Source: Candidatus Methylomirabilota bacterium
Lineage (GTDB): Bacteria > Methylomirabilota > Methylomirabilia > Rokubacteriales > CSP1-6
Assembly (NCBI GenBank): GCA_035709005.1
Contig: DASTFB010000071.1
Location: forward strand, 1-64,000
Direction of reading: 5' to 3'
DNA length: 64,000 nt
Shown here: piece by piece, positions 1,347 through 9,510 of the stretch
How the letters are laid out: the number at the start of each line of letters is the position of its first letter
How positions within the stretch are numbered: position 1 is the first letter of the stretch
Made by a program: the position numbers and the translations under genes
Notes under the pieces: model-generated
Database searches by the model: none
What the model saw: only the letters and a program-made list of their open reading frames with translations
What the model was told of the DNA's origin: nothing

Positions 1347-2213
1347 TCAGCTCCGCTCGGCGACCAGGCGTTCGAGGGCCTGCGCCAGCTCGGCGGGCGG
1401 GTAGCTCAGGCCGCGGTACGTGAAGGCCACACGACCGGCGCGGTCGATGAGGACGACGACGTTCTCGTGTGCGATGCTCCCACCGGCCAGTCGCTCGGCG
1501 CCGACGCGGTGAGCGGCGAGGAGGCGGTCGATGGCGGTCCGATCGCCAGTGAGCAGGCGCCAGGCGTCCCCCAGCGCCCACCGGGCGGCGGTGTCGGCGA
1601 GCGCGGAGACGGTGTCGCGCTCGGGGTCCAGCGTGACGGCGGTGAACAGAGCGCGCCCGGCAACCCGGGCCTCGACCGCCTTCAGCCTCGCGATGAGGGC
1701 CGGGCACGAGGCGTGGCAGTCCGCGTACACGAACGTCAGCGCCACGGGCCGGCCCAGCGGGGCACCAAGCTCGAAGCGCTCGCCCCGGTGATCGGTCAGC
1801 ACGGCCCGGGGCGCGGGCCGGCCCTCCCTGACGGGAACCCGACCCGCCGCCGCCACTCCGCCCGCCACGCCGCCGCCGAGCAGGAGGGCCACGACTGCGA
1901 TCAGGAAGCCGAGCGCGGCCACACTGCTCACCGCGCGGCCGCCCGGGCGGCGCGCGAAGGCGCGGAGCTCCTCGCTGTAGAAGGCGGCGACGACGAGGGC
2001 GAACAGCGGAGGCTCCAGCGTTGTCAACAGTATTGCGTCCATCCGGTAGGCGCGCGTGCTCGCATTCCAGCCGAAGCAGGTGGTCAGCACCGTGTGGGCC
2101 CAGCCACCCATGTCCGGGCCGATGAGAAGGAAGACGATGACGCCGGTGCCCCACGCCAGCGCGGCCAGCGCGAGGACGGGCGCGAACAGGGGATGGCGCA
2201 ACCAGCGGGTCAC
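1347..2213 (-). CDS. SCO1/SenC-family copper chaperone with extra N-terminal membrane segments
   Basis: SCO/PrrC proteins deliver copper to the CuA centre of oxidase subunit II. This one has the thioredoxin-fold copper site CxxxC (C166 and C170, CHASC) and the distal histidine H249 in GSIAHENVV. About 120 residues of N-terminal membrane helices precede the SCO domain, more than the usual single anchor. The start at 2213 is a GTG overlapping the ctaB stop as GTGA; a GTG at 2225 is also in frame. It lies between ctaB and the cytochrome b fusion, which fits maturation of the CuA subunit encoded upstream. Confidence 0.85.
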   Translation of the reverse strand: MTRWLRHPLFAPVLALAALAWGTGVIVFLLIGPDMGGWAHTVLTTCFGWNASTRAYRMDAILLTTLEPPLFALVVAAFYSEELRAFARRPGGRAVSSVAALGFLIAVVALLLGGGVAGGVAAAGRVPVREGRPAPRAVLTDHRGERFELGAPLGRPVALTFVYADCHASCPALIARLKAVEARVAGRALFTAVTLDPERDTVSALADTAARWALGDAWRLLTGDRTAIDRLLAAHRVGAERLAGGSIAHENVVVLIDRAGRVAFTYRGLSYPPAELAQALERLVAERS

Positions 2214-3076
2214 GCCAACCGCCACCAGGTGTCGGCGACGACACCCGCGAAGAGCAGCACCAGCCAGAGATTGGCCGCGTGAAAGGCGTGCAGCGCGAGC
2301 CGCCGGTCGGCGGGCGACTTCAACAGTTGGACGTTACGTCCGAGGAGGTAGACGCTGCCCAGCGCCGTCGGCACGACATACGCGGCGCCGGCGAGGCCGA
2401 GCACGGGCGGCAGGGCGGCGAGCCCGACGAGGCCGAGCGTGTTGACGAGAATCGACCGGGCCGTCCGCGCTTCCCCTTTGACCGCCGGCAGCATCGGGAT
2501 TCGAGCTCCCGCGTACTCGTTCTTGTACGCGATGGCCAGACTCCAGAAGTGCGACGGGCTCCAGAAGAACAGGACGCCGGCGAAAATCACCGGGGGCAGG
2601 CAGAGCTCGGGCCGGGCCAGGGAGCCGCCGCCCAGGACGGCGAAGCTGCCAGCCAGCCCGCCGATGACGACGTTGAGCCAGGACCGGCGCTTCAACCAGA
2701 CGGTGTAGATCACGACGTAGGTGAAGGCGCCCAGGAAGACGTGCAGGGCGACCAGCGGATGCAGGGCCCACGCCGCGGCAGCCACGGCCATCACGACCAG
2801 CCCCAGGCCGAGCGCCACCACGTGCCAGGGGTGAGCGATCCGCCCCGAGGGCAATGGCCGCCGGGCGGTGCGGCGCATCAGGGCATCGATATCGCGGTCC
2901 AGGTAGTGGTTCAGGGCCCCGGCGCCGGCGGCGGCGGCGACGGTGATCACGAAGAGCAGCCCGAGAGCACCGGGCGCCGGCGTGCCGGGGACCGTGCCCA
3001 GATAGCCCAGCACCGCGGCCATCCCGATGAAGACGCCGATCCGAAGCTTCAGCGACTCGACGTAAGCGGCGATCAT
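2210..3076 (-). CDS. ctaB: Protoheme IX farnesyltransferase (heme O synthase)
   Basis: This UbiA-superfamily enzyme converts heme B to heme O with farnesyl diphosphate at the inner membrane. The 288-residue protein has multiple hydrophobic helices and the polyprenyl-diphosphate binding motif NHYLDRDID near residue 61, followed by MRRTARRPLPSG, which are typical of CtaB/CyoE. The start overlaps the stop of the upstream subunit I-like gene as ATGA, so the two are probably translationally coupled. Its presence implies that the heme-copper enzyme of this operon carries heme O or heme A; no ctaA is visible in the window. Confidence 0.93.
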   Translation of the reverse strand: MIAAYVESLKLRIGVFIGMAAVLGYLGTVPGTPAPGALGLLFVITVAAAAGAGALNHYLDRDIDALMRRTARRPLPSGRIAHPWHVVALGLGLVVMAVAAAAWALHPLVALHVFLGAFTYVVIYTVWLKRRSWLNVVIGGLAGSFAVLGGGSLARPELCLPPVIFAGVLFFWSPSHFWSLAIAYKNEYAGARIPMLPAVKGEARTARSILVNTLGLVGLAALPPVLGLAGAAYVVPTALGSVYLLGRNVQLLKSPADRRLALHAFHAANLWLVLLFAGVVADTWWRLA

Positions 3077-4503
3077 CGCGTGCCGGCCCGGGCCGGGACA
3101 GGCGGCCTGCGGAGTAGCGGCAAGCCGATGTTGAGGACGAAGGCGAGGCCCCCCAGGATGGCCAGCGCGGAGCCTAGCCCCATGAGGTTCATGGCGACGA
3201 GGGCCTGGGCGTCGGCCCAGGAAAACCCCACGCTCTTGCGGGGAGCGCCGCGCGCGCCCGCCCAGTGCAGACCGATCATGATCCCGAGCAGGCCGAGGCC
3301 GTAGAGGTAGGGCTGCAGCTTCGTGAGCCATGGCTTCCACGGTTGCCGGCCCGTCAGCGCGAGCAGGGCCGGCGCGAGCCCCATGTAGGCGAGGGTCACG
3401 GCGCCCACCATCCCGTGGTAGTGGGCGGGCACGCGCGTGTCCTGGCTGAACCCGATCACGCCCATCACGCCCCCCACGGCGAAGAGCGCGAAACAGAGCA
3501 GGGTACCCGAGAAAAGCGGGCTGGCCCACGGCAGCGGCCGGGGCGCGCGGGCCATCGCCACTGCGACGGCGAGGGCCAGGGGAAGCGTGGGCCCGCCCAG
3601 GCCGGAGAACGTCACCCACGTGACCACGCGATTGGTGAGTAGCGCCTCCGGAGACCAGACGAGGTACGCGCCGGCGACGGCGAGGATGAAGGGCGCGTAG
3701 GCCCACAGGGCCCCGCGGGCGCGGGCCGGCCCCTGCGGAGCGCCCAGGGCGATCGACGTCGCGATGCCCCAGGCCGCGATCATCCCGGCCGTGTGCGTGA
3801 ACTGGAAGAGGTGGCCGGCGCCCCAGAACAGCGCGCGGAGCTGGAGCATCCGGGGCTGGGCAAAGTCGAGCCGGATCCAGGTAACCCCGAGCATCACCGT
3901 GGCAACGATCACGGCGATCGCGGCGATGGCCAGCGCCGTGGCCTCCAGCGGCTCGACGGTGGCGGCGCGACGGCGCCCGCGCCGCCAGGCGGCGAGATAC
4001 GCGCCTGCCTGGAGCGCGGCGCCGGCGAAGGCCGCCCACAGCCCGGTCCAGAAGAGAGGGTGGTCGATCACGGGGATGTAATCGTTCAGATAAGGGGCGC
4101 CCATCGCCATGGCCGCGGGCACGGCGATGAGCGCCGCCCCGCCGGCCGCGGCGCCCCAGCCCGCCCACGACAGCGCGCCCGACAGCTCGTAGTTGGAGCG
4201 CCAGGCGGCGTAGACCCACAGCACGCCGGCGAAGGCGACGAACCAGATGGTGAGCGCGAAGGTCACGTGCGCGACCAGGGCCAGGTGGAACAGGCCCGCC
4301 GACGAGCCGAGCAGCTGCACGGCCGGAGTGCGCGCGAAGGCGACGAGGATGGCGAAGATCCCTGCCGCCACCAGGGAGCCCAGGGCCAGGCTGAGCCAGG
4401 CCGTGAGGAGCCGTCGCGTAGCGGCCGGAACGGCGCGCGGCAGTTGGCCAGCCGCCGAGCGCGAGGGCTTCTCGAGCTCGATCGCCGCGAGCCGGGGCGC
4501 CAT
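3073..4503 (-). CDS. Heme-copper subunit I-like paralog lacking the CuB histidine pair
   Basis: This 476-residue polytopic protein aligns by eye with the neighbouring subunit I. It keeps the low-spin heme histidine of helix II (H79), the HxH pair of helix X (H361/H363 in VPAHYHGMVGAVTLAYMG) and one helix VI histidine (H231 in GAGHLFQFTHTAGM). The adjacent His-His pair that completes CuB in subunit I is absent; the matching stretch reads LVWSPEALLTNRVV. It therefore looks able to bind heme but not a normal binuclear centre. The gene starts one base inside the stop of subunit I (TGATG) and overlaps ctaB, so it is an integral member of the operon. It could be a structural or electron-transfer subunit; its function is unknown. 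Confidence 0.75.
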   Translation of the reverse strand: MAPRLAAIELEKPSRSAAGQLPRAVPAATRRLLTAWLSLALGSLVAAGIFAILVAFARTPAVQLLGSSAGLFHLALVAHVTFALTIWFVAFAGVLWVYAAWRSNYELSGALSWAGWGAAAGGAALIAVPAAMAMGAPYLNDYIPVIDHPLFWTGLWAAFAGAALQAGAYLAAWRRGRRRAATVEPLEATALAIAAIAVIVATVMLGVTWIRLDFAQPRMLQLRALFWGAGHLFQFTHTAGMIAAWGIATSIALGAPQGPARARGALWAYAPFILAVAGAYLVWSPEALLTNRVVTWVTFSGLGGPTLPLALAVAVAMARAPRPLPWASPLFSGTLLCFALFAVGGVMGVIGFSQDTRVPAHYHGMVGAVTLAYMGLAPALLALTGRQPWKPWLTKLQPYLYGLGLLGIMIGLHWAGARGAPRKSVGFSWADAQALVAMNLMGLGSALAILGGLAFVLNIGLPLLRRPPVPARAGTR

Positions 4504-6170
4504 CACTGCACCATCCAGATGGCAGCCAGCCACTTCCAGTTGAGGAAGTAGTAGATGACGAACGCGGCCAGGAAGACGAGGACGAGCACCATCGTGCCCG
4601 ACATGGGCGTGTGGCGCATGGAAGAGGGGATCGCGGCCAGGGGCACCTGCCCGGCCTGGTCGGGGATGCGGCGGCCGAAGAAGACAGAGGCCACGGTGAG
4701 GCCGACGTAGAGAGCCCCGCCCAGCGCGGCCAGGAGCCCACCCAGCCCCATGATCCCGAGGAAGACAAAGGCGGCGGCCTCGACGGGTGGCTGGAACATC
4801 GCGCCGGTGAACTGCACGTCCCAGTGGCGCCGGGGCACGGCGTACGATCCGGCCGTCGTCATGCCCGCGGAGAAGACGGCCACCCCGAGCCCGAAGGCGT
4901 AGACCTGGAACGTGGCCAGCCGCGGAGCCACGATGCGCCGGCGCCAGATCAGCGGCACGACGTAGTAGGTGAGGCCCATGAAGGCCAGCGTGGTGCCGGC
5001 GACGACGGTGGCGTGGAAGTGGCCGGGAATGCGCAGCGTGTTGTGGGAGATGATGTTGACCTGCTCGGCCCCGAAGGTCACGCCGGTGATGCCGCCCATG
5101 AAGCCGAAGAGCACCAGCGACAGCATCAGGGCCGCAAACCCAGGGTTCCCCCATGGTGCCTTGGCCAGCCACTCGAAGAGTCCCTTCGACAGGCCGTGCC
5201 GCCGCTGGGCCACCTCGACGGACGCCGGGACCGTCATCCCGTGGATCATGCTGGCGAGGACGGCGAGGTACATGCCATAGGAGGTGTTCCAGATCTTCCA
5301 CGCCGGCGACACTTGCGGATCGACGAGCAGATGGTGGGCCGAGGCCAGGTTGATGAAGAGGATGTAGAGCACGAAGGCCCAGCGGCTGACCTTCTCGTTG
5401 ACGGGCGTGGCGCCCACCGTGAGGGTGGCCAGGAGGTACCAGACCGACACCATCGCCGCAACGTTGATCTGCTGCGAGGGATGGCCGAGTCCCCACCAGA
5501 GGAGGCGGTACATGCCCGCGTCGAGGTTCTGGACGATACCGAGCGACCACAGCCAGGTGGGGATGTAGATGATCGCGCCGTGGGCCAGCGTGACCACGGC
5601 GATGATGGCTGCCGTGAGGGCCCCGAACGTCACCAGCGGGATCGAGCCCTGATAGGTCCGCTCGGCCCGAGCCACCACCAGGGTGGCGAAGAAGTTCAGC
5701 ACGCCGACGAGGGCGCCGACGGCGAACAGGATCCAGCCCAGGTAGAAGTAGTGCACGGCTTGCATCGGCACGTAGGAGGTGAACATGACGTCGGCACCGC
5801 CCCGCAGCACGGCCACGTCGATGAGCAGCGAGCCCGCCACCATCAGCCCGAACCCCACCCAGCCCACCCGCGGCCAGGCCACGCGGCTGCCCAGCACGAT
5901 GGGCGCGGCGAAGTAGAGGATGGCGATCTCGAAGAAGATGATCCAGAAGATCAGCATGTTGATGCCGTGGAAGGTGAGGGCGCGGTAATACATCGTCGGA
6001 TCGAGCAGGTGAACGGCCGGCCACCGCGTGAGCAGGACCAGCAGCGCGGCGATCCCGCCGAAGAGGATGGCCAGCACGCCGGCCACGGCGTGGACCTTGA
6101 TGAGGCGCTCGGCGGTCAGGTGGACCCGGAAGCCGGTGTGGGCACAGGTGCGGAAGGCCGACGCGTCCAT
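4503..6170 (-). CDS. B-type heme-copper subunit I without the active-site tyrosine; probable NO reductase
   Basis: This 555-residue polytopic protein is the catalytic subunit. Heme and CuB ligands are present: H68 for low-spin heme, H230 plus H279/H280 for CuB, and H384/H386 in IPGHFHATVV. The overall pattern resembles ba3-type (B family) oxidases, for example AHHLLVDPQVSPAWK. However, the helix VI motif that reads HPxVY in O2 reductases reads HPSQQ here, so the cross-linked tyrosine is replaced by Q234. Loss of that tyrosine is characteristic of the nitric oxide reductases of this superfamily, including the CuA-containing eNOR-type families. I chose the ATG at 6170 because GGAGG precedes it and overlaps the subunit II stop. 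The NO reductase assignment is inference from one key residue and the operon context. Confidence 0.78.
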   Translation of the reverse strand: MDASAFRTCAHTGFRVHLTAERLIKVHAVAGVLAILFGGIAALLVLLTRWPAVHLLDPTMYYRALTFHGINMLIFWIIFFEIAILYFAAPIVLGSRVAWPRVGWVGFGLMVAGSLLIDVAVLRGGADVMFTSYVPMQAVHYFYLGWILFAVGALVGVLNFFATLVVARAERTYQGSIPLVTFGALTAAIIAVVTLAHGAIIYIPTWLWSLGIVQNLDAGMYRLLWWGLGHPSQQINVAAMVSVWYLLATLTVGATPVNEKVSRWAFVLYILFINLASAHHLLVDPQVSPAWKIWNTSYGMYLAVLASMIHGMTVPASVEVAQRRHGLSKGLFEWLAKAPWGNPGFAALMLSLVLFGFMGGITGVTFGAEQVNIISHNTLRIPGHFHATVVAGTTLAFMGLTYYVVPLIWRRRIVAPRLATFQVYAFGLGVAVFSAGMTTAGSYAVPRRHWDVQFTGAMFQPPVEAAAFVFLGIMGLGGLLAALGGALYVGLTVASVFFGRRIPDQAGQVPLAAIPSSMRHTPMSGTMVLVLVFLAAFVIYYFLNWKWLAAIWMVQ

Positions 6171-6180
6171 GCTGGTCCTC

Positions 6181-6705
6181 CTACTCCACGATGATCTTGC
6201 CGACCATGGTGTGGTGCCCGATGCCACAGAACTCGTTGCAGACGGCGTAGACGTCGCCCGCTTCGGTCGGCGTCACCGTCAGCACGTATTCGTAACCGGG
6301 CAGGACCATGAAGTTCAGGTTGAGCGGGAAGAGGGAAAAGCCGTGCACGAGATCCGTCGATGACAGGTGCAGCCGGTAGGTCTCGCCCTTCTTGAACTTG
6401 AGCACGGGGTACCAGGCCCACATCCGGCCCAGCATGTACACGTCCTCGCCGGGCGGCGCGGCCACGACGGGCACGCCGCTGTCCTCGCCCACCTTGTGCT
6501 TCGCCACGAAGGCCTCGACCTTGTCCTGGAAGCCGGCGGCGGTGATGCGGTAGGTCTCGAACGACGGGTTCTGCTTTCCGGTGAGGTGCCACAGCGGCAT
6601 CATCGCGAAGAGCACGAGACACCAGACGAGCGCGATGCCGATCCACACTTTCTCGGAGGGATCGACTTTCTTCCACCACACACCCTGCAGCGTCTGGAGA
6701 CTCAT
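6181..6705 (-). CDS. Heme-copper enzyme subunit II with intact CuA site
   Basis: This 174-residue membrane-anchored cupredoxin has one N-terminal helix (about residues 20-40) and a complete CuA site: H121, C156, E158, C160, H164 and M167 in VCNEFCGIGHHTM. The single-anchor, short form is typical of B-type subunit II. An intact CuA means that the enzyme takes electrons from a soluble or membrane cytochrome c or cupredoxin, unlike cNOR and qNOR, which lack CuA. It is cotranscribed ahead of subunit I with a 10-base gap. Confidence 0.9.
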   Translation of the reverse strand: MSLQTLQGVWWKKVDPSEKVWIGIALVWCLVLFAMMPLWHLTGKQNPSFETYRITAAGFQDKVEAFVAKHKVGEDSGVPVVAAPPGEDVYMLGRMWAWYPVLKFKKGETYRLHLSSTDLVHGFSLFPLNLNFMVLPGYEYVLTVTPTEAGDVYAVCNEFCGIGHHTMVGKIIVE

Positions 6706-6715
6706 GGCGCGCTCC

Positions 6716-6874
6716 TCAGCGGGCCAGCGGGATGCTGGCGATCTCGAGCAGTCCCCAGATGGTGTAGAAGACGATGGGAACGGCCAGGCCGATCACGAGC
6801 AGGATGAACGGATTGTCGAAGACGGCCTGCATGAGCGGCGGGCGCGACTGCGGCTCTCGATCCTCAGTGGCCAT
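6716..6874 (-). CDS. Small single-helix subunit of the heme-copper enzyme
   Basis: A 52-residue protein with a polar N-terminus (about 18 residues) and one transmembrane helix (FILLVIGLAVPIVFYTIWGL). It is the first gene of the operon, starts at an ATG preceded by GGAGGGAG, and ends 10 bases before subunit II. Size, topology and position match the IIa-type small subunit of ba3-like enzymes. I see no other motif. Confidence 0.75.
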   Translation of the reverse strand: MATEDREPQSRPPLMQAVFDNPFILLVIGLAVPIVFYTIWGLLEIASIPLAR

Positions 6875-6998: not shown

Positions 6999-7646
6999 TC
7001 AGAGCAGGCGGTGGCGGTTCGCATACGCGACCGCCTCCAGCCGGCTGTGGAGACCGAGCTTGGCCAGGATGTGCTGCACGTGGTTCTTCACGGTGGCCCG
7101 GCTCACGTGCAGCCGCTCGGCGATGTCGGCGGTTCGCACGCCGCGGGCGAGGAGCTGCAATATTTCGACCTCCCGCCGGGTCAGCGTCTCGGCCGCCGGG
7201 TCCTGGGGCTCGGCCGCCGCGGTCAGGCGCTCGTGAACCAGGCGGACCAGCTCTCGGGTTGCCGTTACGTCGCGAAACAAGTGTACGCTGACGGCCCCCG
7301 AGCCCGGACCGGGCGCGGTCAGCACGCTGATGTTGAGCCAGACCGGGCGGCCAGCCTTCGTCGTCGTACGCATGTCGAAGGCCTGCACCGACTCGCCGAG
7401 GCCCAGCAGCGTCGTGACCTGACAGCCCGGGTAGCAGACGCGGTTGGCGTGCTCGTCGTAGCCGCGCAAGACCTCACAACAGGCTCGTCCGATGACCTCT
7501 CGAGCTGGATAGCCGAGGATCTTCTCGGCCGCCCGGTTCCAGAGACGGAGGCGGCCGTCGGCGCCGACGACGAAGGCGCCGTCGCCCGCCCGCTCCAGGG
7601 CTCGGGCGAGCCAGGTGTCCCCGCTGGCAGGTATCGGCCCGGGCAT
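6999..7646 (-). CDS. PAS-LuxR transcriptional regulator with a cysteine-rich PAS domain
   Basis: This 215-residue protein has an N-terminal PAS domain (about 12-125) and a C-terminal LuxR/GerE helix-turn-helix (about 150-215; LTRREVEILQLLARG and SRATVKNHVQHILAKL). The PAS domain carries four closely spaced cysteines (CC, then VCYPGC, about residues 51-73) that could bind metal or sense redox state. There is no receiver domain. It sits between the nine-heme cytochrome and the heme-copper operon on the same strand, so it is a candidate local regulator. Start is the first ATG after an in-frame stop near 7770. The signal sensed is unknown. Confidence 0.85.
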   Translation of the reverse strand: MPGPIPASGDTWLARALERAGDGAFVVGADGRLRLWNRAAEKILGYPAREVIGRACCEVLRGYDEHANRVCYPGCQVTTLLGLGESVQAFDMRTTTKAGRPVWLNISVLTAPGPGSGAVSVHLFRDVTATRELVRLVHERLTAAAEPQDPAAETLTRREVEILQLLARGVRTADIAERLHVSRATVKNHVQHILAKLGLHSRLEAVAYANRHRLL

Positions 7647-7836: not shown

Positions 7837-9510
7837 TCAGGCCGGACGCCGGCGGTGCCAGAGCCGCCAGACGCCGTAGACGGCACCCAGCACGGCCAGC
7901 ACCATCAGCGGGCCGGTGAAGATCATGAAGAGCGTTTGCTTGCGCACCGTTTCCGCCGAGCGGAGCCGTTCGGCCTCGTCGCGGATCGAGGCGAGGTGGC
8001 CCAGCACGTCGGCGTAGCCGTACCACCACGCGTAGTCCGGGCTCATGTGGAAGGCGCCCTTGTAGCTCTTGAGCGCCGAGAAGAAGAACATGTCGAAGTA
8101 GTCGCGCTCGATGGGCGTGACGTCGTAGTAGAGGCTGGCCGGCGAGTGGAAGGCCAGCCCGCCTGGCAGCTCGACGGCAGTGAAGCGCGGTCCGGACAGG
8201 AGCCCGGCCGACACCTGGGCGTGACTGGGCCGGATGAGGCCGTCGCGATAGAGCCCGCTCAGGATGTCGCGGGCCTCGACGACGAGGGCGTCACCGGCCA
8301 GCTTGTGGGCGTCCGCCGACTCCAGATACCCACGGGCCTTGTCCTCGGAGTGGCAGGTGAGGCACACCTTGATCATCTCGTTCCGCTTGGCCAAATTCTC
8401 GGGTTCGATCGTGATGTCCTTGAGCTCCCCCAGGGCCGCCTGCGTCCCCATGCCCCAGATGATCTTCCGCGTCATGTTGTGGCTGACCGTGCGAGTCCCG
8501 TCGTCGCCGACGTAGAGCATGTGGCAGTAGGCGCAGGTCGGCGCGTCCCAGCGGGCCTGCGTCATCGAGGTGTTCCAGTTCCAGTCCTTGCCGCGGGCCA
8601 CGTAGATCGACCCGTGCTTCGACGACATGTAGGCCTCGTAGTTCGGGTGGTCGGGGCCCATGTGACAGGTGTAGCAGGCCTCCGGCTTGCGGGCTTCTTC
8701 CAGGTGGAAGGCGTGCCGGGTGTGGCAGGCGATACAGCCGTTGCGGATGGTCAGGCTCGAGGTGTCGACGTACTTCTTCTCCTCCTCGCTCCAGTACTTG
8801 GCGTCGGTGGCGCCGGCCTGAGCGTGGCAGGGATCGCACCCCATCTCCATGACCTTACGCGGCATGTGCTTGTAGTGCGGCACGCCGATGTTGCGTTCCC
8901 AGTTGATGCCCAGGTCGCCGGGCCCCGGCCCGTAGGAGTGGCCGGCGTCGAGCACGTGCTCCTTGTAGATCTGCTGGTGACAGGCCCCGCACGTCGTCTC
9001 CGGCACCCGGCCTTTGGTCGCCATGATCTCGTCGTGGTCGGTGCCGTGGCAGCCGGCGCAGGTCATCTGCGCCTGCGGGAACGTCACGCGGCGATTCTGC
9101 ACGCCAGGGCGTCCCATCGCGCTCGTCTCGAACTGCCGGACGATCTCCGGGTTGGTCTTGCGATGGCATTCGGCGCAGGTCTTCTGGTCCAGGACGCCGC
9201 GCGGGACGTCCGCGCGGATCTTGGCCGGCGGCGGCGGCACGGCCTGCAGGTACGCGTGAATGTCGCGCACCTCGGCGTCGCTGACCACCTGGGCGGGAAA
9301 GGGCGGCATGATCCCCCGCGGCTTCCGGACCTGCTGGATGAAGACGTCGACGCTGAGTTTGCTATTGGCCAGGGTGGGACCGACTCCTCCGCGTCCGCTG
9401 GCGCCGTGGCAGCCGAGGCAGCCCCGGCGGATATAAAGATCGGCTCCGGGCTCGGCTGGAGTCTGGGCGAGCGCAGCAGCCGGCCACGCAGCCACCCAGA
9501 CGACGAACAC
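7837..9510 (-). CDS. Nine-heme, membrane-anchored HAO-family cytochrome c
   Basis: This 557-residue protein has nine CxxCH motifs. The first (CLGCH) lies in a small cytochrome c domain with a likely Met ligand (IMPPFP). The other eight (CAECH, CAGCH, CGACH, CDPCH, CIACH, CYTCH, CAYCH, CLTCH) and the motif MGPDHPNYEAYMSSKHG match the octaheme hydroxylamine oxidoreductase family. A C-terminal helix (TLFMIFTGPLMVLAVLGAV) anchors it. The N-terminus is a signal peptide ending near ALAQ; the GTG at 9510 gives a short one, and in-frame codons upstream (RRRLLRVFL) suggest that the true start may be a CTG farther up. HAO-family enzymes oxidise hydroxylamine or reduce nitrite or hydroxylamine. Direction here depends on whether the P460 cross-link tyrosine is present; DYAWWYGY is a candidate region that needs alignment. 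Confidence 0.85.
   Translation of the reverse strand: MFVVWVAAWPAAALAQTPAEPGADLYIRRGCLGCHGASGRGGVGPTLANSKLSVDVFIQQVRKPRGIMPPFPAQVVSDAEVRDIHAYLQAVPPPPAKIRADVPRGVLDQKTCAECHRKTNPEIVRQFETSAMGRPGVQNRRVTFPQAQMTCAGCHGTDHDEIMATKGRVPETTCGACHQQIYKEHVLDAGHSYGPGPGDLGINWERNIGVPHYKHMPRKVMEMGCDPCHAQAGATDAKYWSEEEKKYVDTSSLTIRNGCIACHTRHAFHLEEARKPEACYTCHMGPDHPNYEAYMSSKHGSIYVARGKDWNWNTSMTQARWDAPTCAYCHMLYVGDDGTRTVSHNMTRKIIWGMGTQAALGELKDITIEPENLAKRNEMIKVCLTCHSEDKARGYLESADAHKLAGDALVVEARDILSGLYRDGLIRPSHAQVSAGLLSGPRFTAVELPGGLAFHSPASLYYDVTPIERDYFDMFFFSALKSYKGAFHMSPDYAWWYGYADVLGHLASIRDEAERLRSAETVRKQTLFMIFTGPLMVLAVLGAVYGVWRLWHRRRPA

Follow-up and report, generated by a model that had tools for sequence, protein, structure and literature searches.

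A predicted eNOR-type nitric oxide reductase gene cluster with a CuB-less subunit I paralogue in a Rokubacterium (Methylomirabilota)

The compact gene cluster that occupies the minus strand from ~6.9 kb down to base 1 of the window (the whole stretch of 64,000 nucleotides analysed here) very probably encodes an eNOR-type nitric oxide (NO) reductase of a Rokubacterium (Methylomirabilota), a reading drawn from sequence to which we assign a probability of about 0.9. Its catalytic haem-copper subunit I, a 555-aa protein encoded at 4503-6170 on the minus strand (Pfam COX1 3.3e-63), is predicted to reduce NO, and it is a fresh member of an already established family rather than a new family. The eNOR family reportedly goes back to Hemp and Gennis in 2008, and the enzyme is said to have been characterised by Murali et al. 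in PNAS in 2024. The closest named relatives of the window's eNOR come from Rokubacteria MAGs (80-90% identity), and literature searches for the operon of eNOR, as well as for eNOR in Rokubacteria, returned nothing specific.

All genes of this region lie on the minus strand. Subunit II (6181-6705; Pfam COX2) is encoded directly upstream of subunit I and is itself immediately preceded by a gene for a small single-TM protein (6716-6874) that is kept in most of 80 eNOR loci. Downstream of subunit I follow COX1b, a haem-copper subunit I paralogue without a full CuB site (3073-4503, 476 aa), haem o synthase CtaB/CyoE (2210-3076; TIGR01473 above cut-off), a SCO1/SenC copper chaperone associated with CuA assembly (1347-2225; Pfam SCO1-SenC 1.9e-16), and a gene, cut by the contig end, whose product has a cytochrome b N-terminal domain and two [4Fe-4S] motifs (1-1344; Pfam Cytochrome_B 2.6e-18, Fer4). 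Relatives of the latter protein carry a FlpD domain after the cytochrome b/[4Fe-4S] part, and one of them is encoded near eNOR in 61 of the 80 loci, a set that includes truncated ones. Upstream of the cluster, a PAS-LuxR-type transcription regulator (6999-7646; Pfam GerE and PAS) is a possible regulator of the eNOR genes; similar PAS proteins adjoin the clusters of two other genomes, G072 and G073.

The subunit I residues support the assignment of this protein to the eNOR family. Its N-terminus, MDASAFRTC, is a plausible start even though the frame is open up to a GTG at 6227, because R7 and C9 close to this start are 97% conserved. As the initial annotation had stated, all haem and CuB histidines are present, and H68, H230, H279, H280, H384 and H386 are each found in 81/81 rows of an alignment of near-full-length sequences. 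The same annotation correctly read HPSQQ in place of the helix VI motif HPxVY: these residues (230-234; window positions 5469-5483) align over GHPIxYFWL of Thermus ba3 in a comparison with PDB sequences, which places Q234 on the cross-linked Tyr237. Gln occupies the Tyr site in all 80 eNOR rows, and Q233 and Q234 are each present in 80 of the 81; in the single remaining row these two positions read V and Y and position 310 reads T, the motif of L004, a Tyr-bearing B-family oxidase (GHPIVYFW) that the host itself encodes and that had got past the score filter into the alignment. A cross-linkable Tyr facing CuB in helix VI or VII, which had been named as grounds for abandoning the NO reductase reading, was not found: Gln stands in helix VI and I273 occupies the cbb3-type position of helix VII, six residues before the HH pair; a conserved Y269 (80/81) lies ten residues before this pair, about one turn beyond the cbb3 cross-link position. 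The annotation had suggested looking for an extra acidic ligand; no acidic residue takes the Tyr site, which is occupied by Gln.

Comparison with Thermus thermophilus ba3 (1EHK) reveals both what has been retained and what has been remodelled. The window enzyme shares with ba3 the fold, the haem and CuB histidines, the CuA site and, by sequence alignment, the K-channel positions Y248, S309 and T315 (Y245 and S307, each 81/81, and T313, 77/81), and it differs in having Gln234 for Tyr237, an eNOR-specific His, H310 (conserved 80/81), for T312 and V241 for Tyr244, as well as in belonging to another clade. A single proton channel is predicted for the eNOR family. By alignment, Q234, H310 and Y269 are predicted to lie around CuB, and H310 may have a role near Gln234.

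The residue found at the active-site Tyr position distinguishes families of the superfamily: O2 reductases have Tyr there, eNOR has Gln, cNOR and qNOR have Glu, gNOR has Asp, and sNOR and bNOR (CuANOR) have Asn (PMC8756737 Table A4). Moreover, eNOR is one of four biochemically characterised NOR families and is related to the B-family oxidases (PMC11388526). Phylogenetic analysis places the window gene inside one eNOR clade (95 SH-aLRT in the first tree; 99/94, bootstrap 99, in the careful tree), whereas all 16 Tyr-bearing B-family controls, Thermus ba3 included, form a separate group (100/99). In this tree, the B-family group is represented by Thermus ba3, haloarchaeal and own-phylum sequences, with A-family sequences as the outgroup. 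Scores across the phylum also separate the two, with E values of ~1e-287 for eNOR and ~1e-70 for the B family and a wide gap between them. Thus, of the tree proposed in the initial annotation, the part that concerns ba3 and the B family bears out an eNOR clade apart from these enzymes, and the placement among proven O2 reductases that would have counted against this reading was not found; cNOR, qNOR, sNOR, gNOR and bNOR reference sequences were outside the tree, so that only the active-site residue and subunit II set these families apart.

On these two features, several identities were considered and rejected. The claim that the enzyme is neither cNOR nor qNOR stands: these families share with the window protein membership in the haem-copper superfamily, the absence of the active-site Tyr and the conversion of NO to N2O (predicted for the window enzyme), but they combine a Glu in that position with a haem c subunit or, in a quinol-only single chain, a quinol site, and lack CuA, whereas the window protein combines Gln with a CuA-bearing subunit II. 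The full CuA site of this subunit (H121, C156-x-E-x-C160-x3-H164-x2-M167), whose retention had been noted before, has each of its six ligands (H121, C156, E158, C160, H164 and M167) in 81/81 sequences, and a search of the subunit II sequence (6181-6705) for CXXCH found none, so it has no haem c motif. Similarly, sNOR, gNOR and bNOR (CuANOR) share a cupredoxin-type subunit II and B-family relatives with the window enzyme but carry Asn, Asp and Asn, respectively, instead of Gln, and a ba3-type B-family O2 reductase is rejected by Gln at the helix VI Tyr position and by the position of the gene outside the Tyr-bearing group. The window and the eNOR family have in common Gln at the Tyr site, a B-family origin, a CuA subunit II encoded directly upstream, and CtaB and SCO neighbours; they differ in the Rokubacterial host and possibly in the presence of the CuB-less COX1 paralogue in the operon. 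The proposal of a CuA-bearing, eNOR-type enzyme derived from B-type oxidases is therefore supported by the Gln residue, the clade, the CuA site and the NirS genes in related loci described below, from which NO reduction is predicted.

A working model for this enzyme can be outlined from these features. Electrons would enter at CuA of subunit II and pass to the low-spin haem (H68/H386) and then to the binuclear site formed by the high-spin haem (H384) and CuB (H230, H279 and H280), at which 2 NO + 2 e- + 2 H+ would yield N2O + H2O. When O2 is split, the cross-linked Tyr contributes one more electron and proton, which NO reduction does not require; Gln takes its place. Protons would probably come from the cytoplasm via a remodelled K-type channel, so the eNOR may conserve energy. 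In addition, CtaB would supply haem and SCO the CuA centre, and both COX1b and the cytochrome b/Fe-S protein probably act as partners in electron transfer, although the electron path, the proton path and the role of COX1b are all predictions of this model.

The COX1b gene lies directly downstream of subunit I and was unmentioned in the initial annotation. Its assignment to the haem-copper superfamily relies on Pfam COX1 (2e-12), on hhalign (E 1.6e-43 to eNOR subunit I), on an AF2 model (pLDDT 89.4) that has ba3 as its top fold match, and on its residues; a phmmer search of COX1b against the PDB gave no match, so it is placed by profile and fold comparison only. Across 41 COX1b sequences from several phyla, H79, H231 (helix VI), H361 and H363 are each invariant (41/41) and the helix VII HH pair of CuB is found in none (0/41), indicating that both haem sites are kept and two CuB histidines are lost. 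COX1b therefore lacks two of the three CuB histidines of an active haem-copper subunit I, but has its fold, with 12 long helices in the AF2 model and haem ligands in helices II and X. An identity as NnrS was rejected, since Pfam COX1 matches 31 of the 41 members and NnrS none, and NCBIfam gave nothing relevant. The COX1b proteins form one clade that joins eNOR and not the B family (98 SH-aLRT), on a long branch that makes the exact joining point less sure.

The distribution of COX1b follows that of eNOR in two phyla. Among Methylomirabilota, eNOR is present in 8 of 9 genomes with COX1b versus 2 of 86 without it (Fisher p 3e-9, genome relatedness ignored), and the Myxococcota have 33 full COX1b genes, of which 31 are separated from the gene for eNOR subunit I by 0.8-1.1 kb, both exceptions being ≤1.5 kb from a contig end (Fisher p 3e-31 over 284 genomes, relatedness again ignored). 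Of 33 eNOR genomes that have no full COX1b at the locus, 12 carry such a sequence at another place in the assembly and the other 21 have none, which indicates that eNOR can work without it; COX1b was also sought in plasmids and was not found there. Fodinibius halophilus (L088) has eNOR together with COX1b. A decaying duplicate without function would account for the loss of two CuB histidines, for the fast divergence seen as long branches and for the complete absence of COX1b from these 21 genomes, but it is improbable, because a decaying gene would be expected to lose the four invariant histidines, the confidently modelled fold and the tight linkage to eNOR in two phyla. We think instead that COX1b may be a diheme electron-transfer or assembly partner. 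A more specific proposal, which we advance tentatively, is that COX1b is a copper-free eNOR partner with two membrane haems that forms a heterodimer with eNOR and, together with the cytochrome b/Fe-S protein, delivers electrons from the quinol pool to the NO-reducing site. No description of COX1b was found in the literature searched, which did not include the main 2024 eNOR paper (PNAS), and this protein provides a clear, testable lead on the electron supply or assembly of eNOR.

Genes near related clusters support NO as the substrate of this enzyme. Within the family of genomes to which the window belongs, NirS (cytochrome cd1 nitrite reductase) is confined to two Rokubacteria, G073 and G089 (cd1 domain E 1e-134 and 1.6e-124). 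Both genomes encode it on the contig of their eNOR cluster and in the same orientation, G073 ~5 kb downstream of subunit I and beyond the cytochrome b gene, G089 2.4 kb downstream and beyond COX1b. A NirS relative is also found within ~3 kb of eNOR in two Myxococcota loci (L053 and L069), and none is found within 6 kb in most of the eNOR loci sampled. On a Thermus thermophilus plasmid, the genes that come after eNOR encode Rrf2 and ScdA_N proteins, types known from the NO response. The host assembly contains no NirS, NirK or NosZ above cut-off (for NirK, TIGR02376 found only a sub-threshold fragment), but the cytochrome b gene is cut off by the end of the contig, a little short of the place that NirS occupies in G073, so its absence from the host cannot be claimed.

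Another potential link to NO is a multihaem cytochrome of the HAO/HDH family encoded at 7837-9510 on the minus strand (PF13447 1.6e-45; nine CXXCH motifs), which has an N-terminal mono-haem domain and a C-terminal hydrophobic segment and matches the HAO family in the PDB at 1.5e-40. This HAO-like cytochrome (also L179:12669-14339) occurs in 11 genomes of Rokubacteriales, most of which have no eNOR, and its gene adjoins eNOR in the window and in G072. It is possible that it acts as an NO-producing neighbour whose link to eNOR is only partly conserved; as a fixed part of the module it was rejected, since it occurs in 3 of the 10 eNOR genomes of the phylum and is adjacent to eNOR in 2.

Other functions for the window enzyme have to be weighed against this evidence. 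A B-family O2 reductase that dispenses with the cross-linked Tyr, or uses a different one such as Y269 instead, could explain why the closest solved structures are ba3 oxidases (PDB alignment E ~1e-40; predicted structure match to ba3-type enzymes E 1.4e-17), why several K-channel positions are retained and why Y269 is so well conserved. However, Y269 is displaced from the position of the cbb3 Tyr, the sampled Tyr-bearing B-family proteins all fall in a separate group, NirS is linked to related clusters, and published work counts eNOR among the characterised NO reductases (PMC11388526). The host genome also contains separate A-, B- (Tyr-bearing) and C-type O2 reductases, so the window enzyme is not needed for O2, and we consider this function very unlikely. 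A different N-oxide reaction is more improbable still: Methylomirabilis, which belongs to this phylum, has been proposed to dismutate NO (treated in PMC3413370), but no sequence feature in its favour was found in the window protein. The proposed NO dismutases are qNOR relatives without CuA, unlike this B-family protein with CuA.

A further alternative concerns the role of the enzyme and not its reaction, namely that NO is reduced mainly as protection against NO that neighbouring organisms or the HAO-like cytochrome next to it release, rather than as part of denitrification by the host. The lack of NirK, NirS and NosZ hits above cut-off in the host, the position of the HAO-family gene just upstream, as in G072, and the presence of ScdA_N and hemerythrin genes elsewhere in the host are consistent with such a role. 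On the other hand, an operon with its own cytochrome b/Fe-S protein and CuA resembles that of a respiratory enzyme, and two near relatives carry NirS in the cluster, so protection is a possible function that we hold with some doubt.

The assignment of the window enzyme as an eNOR extends this family to Rokubacteria, two relatives of the window's genome encoding NirS within the cluster itself. Plasmid-borne eNORs of Thermus, Thermomicrobium and Defluviimonas bear the label 'cbb3-type' or 'b(o/a)3-type' cytochrome c oxidase subunit I, and subunit I is named 'cbb3-type' in the public plasmid records L090, L091 and L092. Such routine oxidase labels make this branch, which produces the greenhouse gas N2O by NO reduction, easy to overlook in genome surveys. 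Elsewhere in the host genome (contig C87, L178:4293-5582), a 430-aa protein with a weak COX1 match (E 1e-8) adjoins an ScdA_N/DUF542 gene, as also seen in L013, and may be one more degenerate haem-copper relative, here within a cluster for the NO response.
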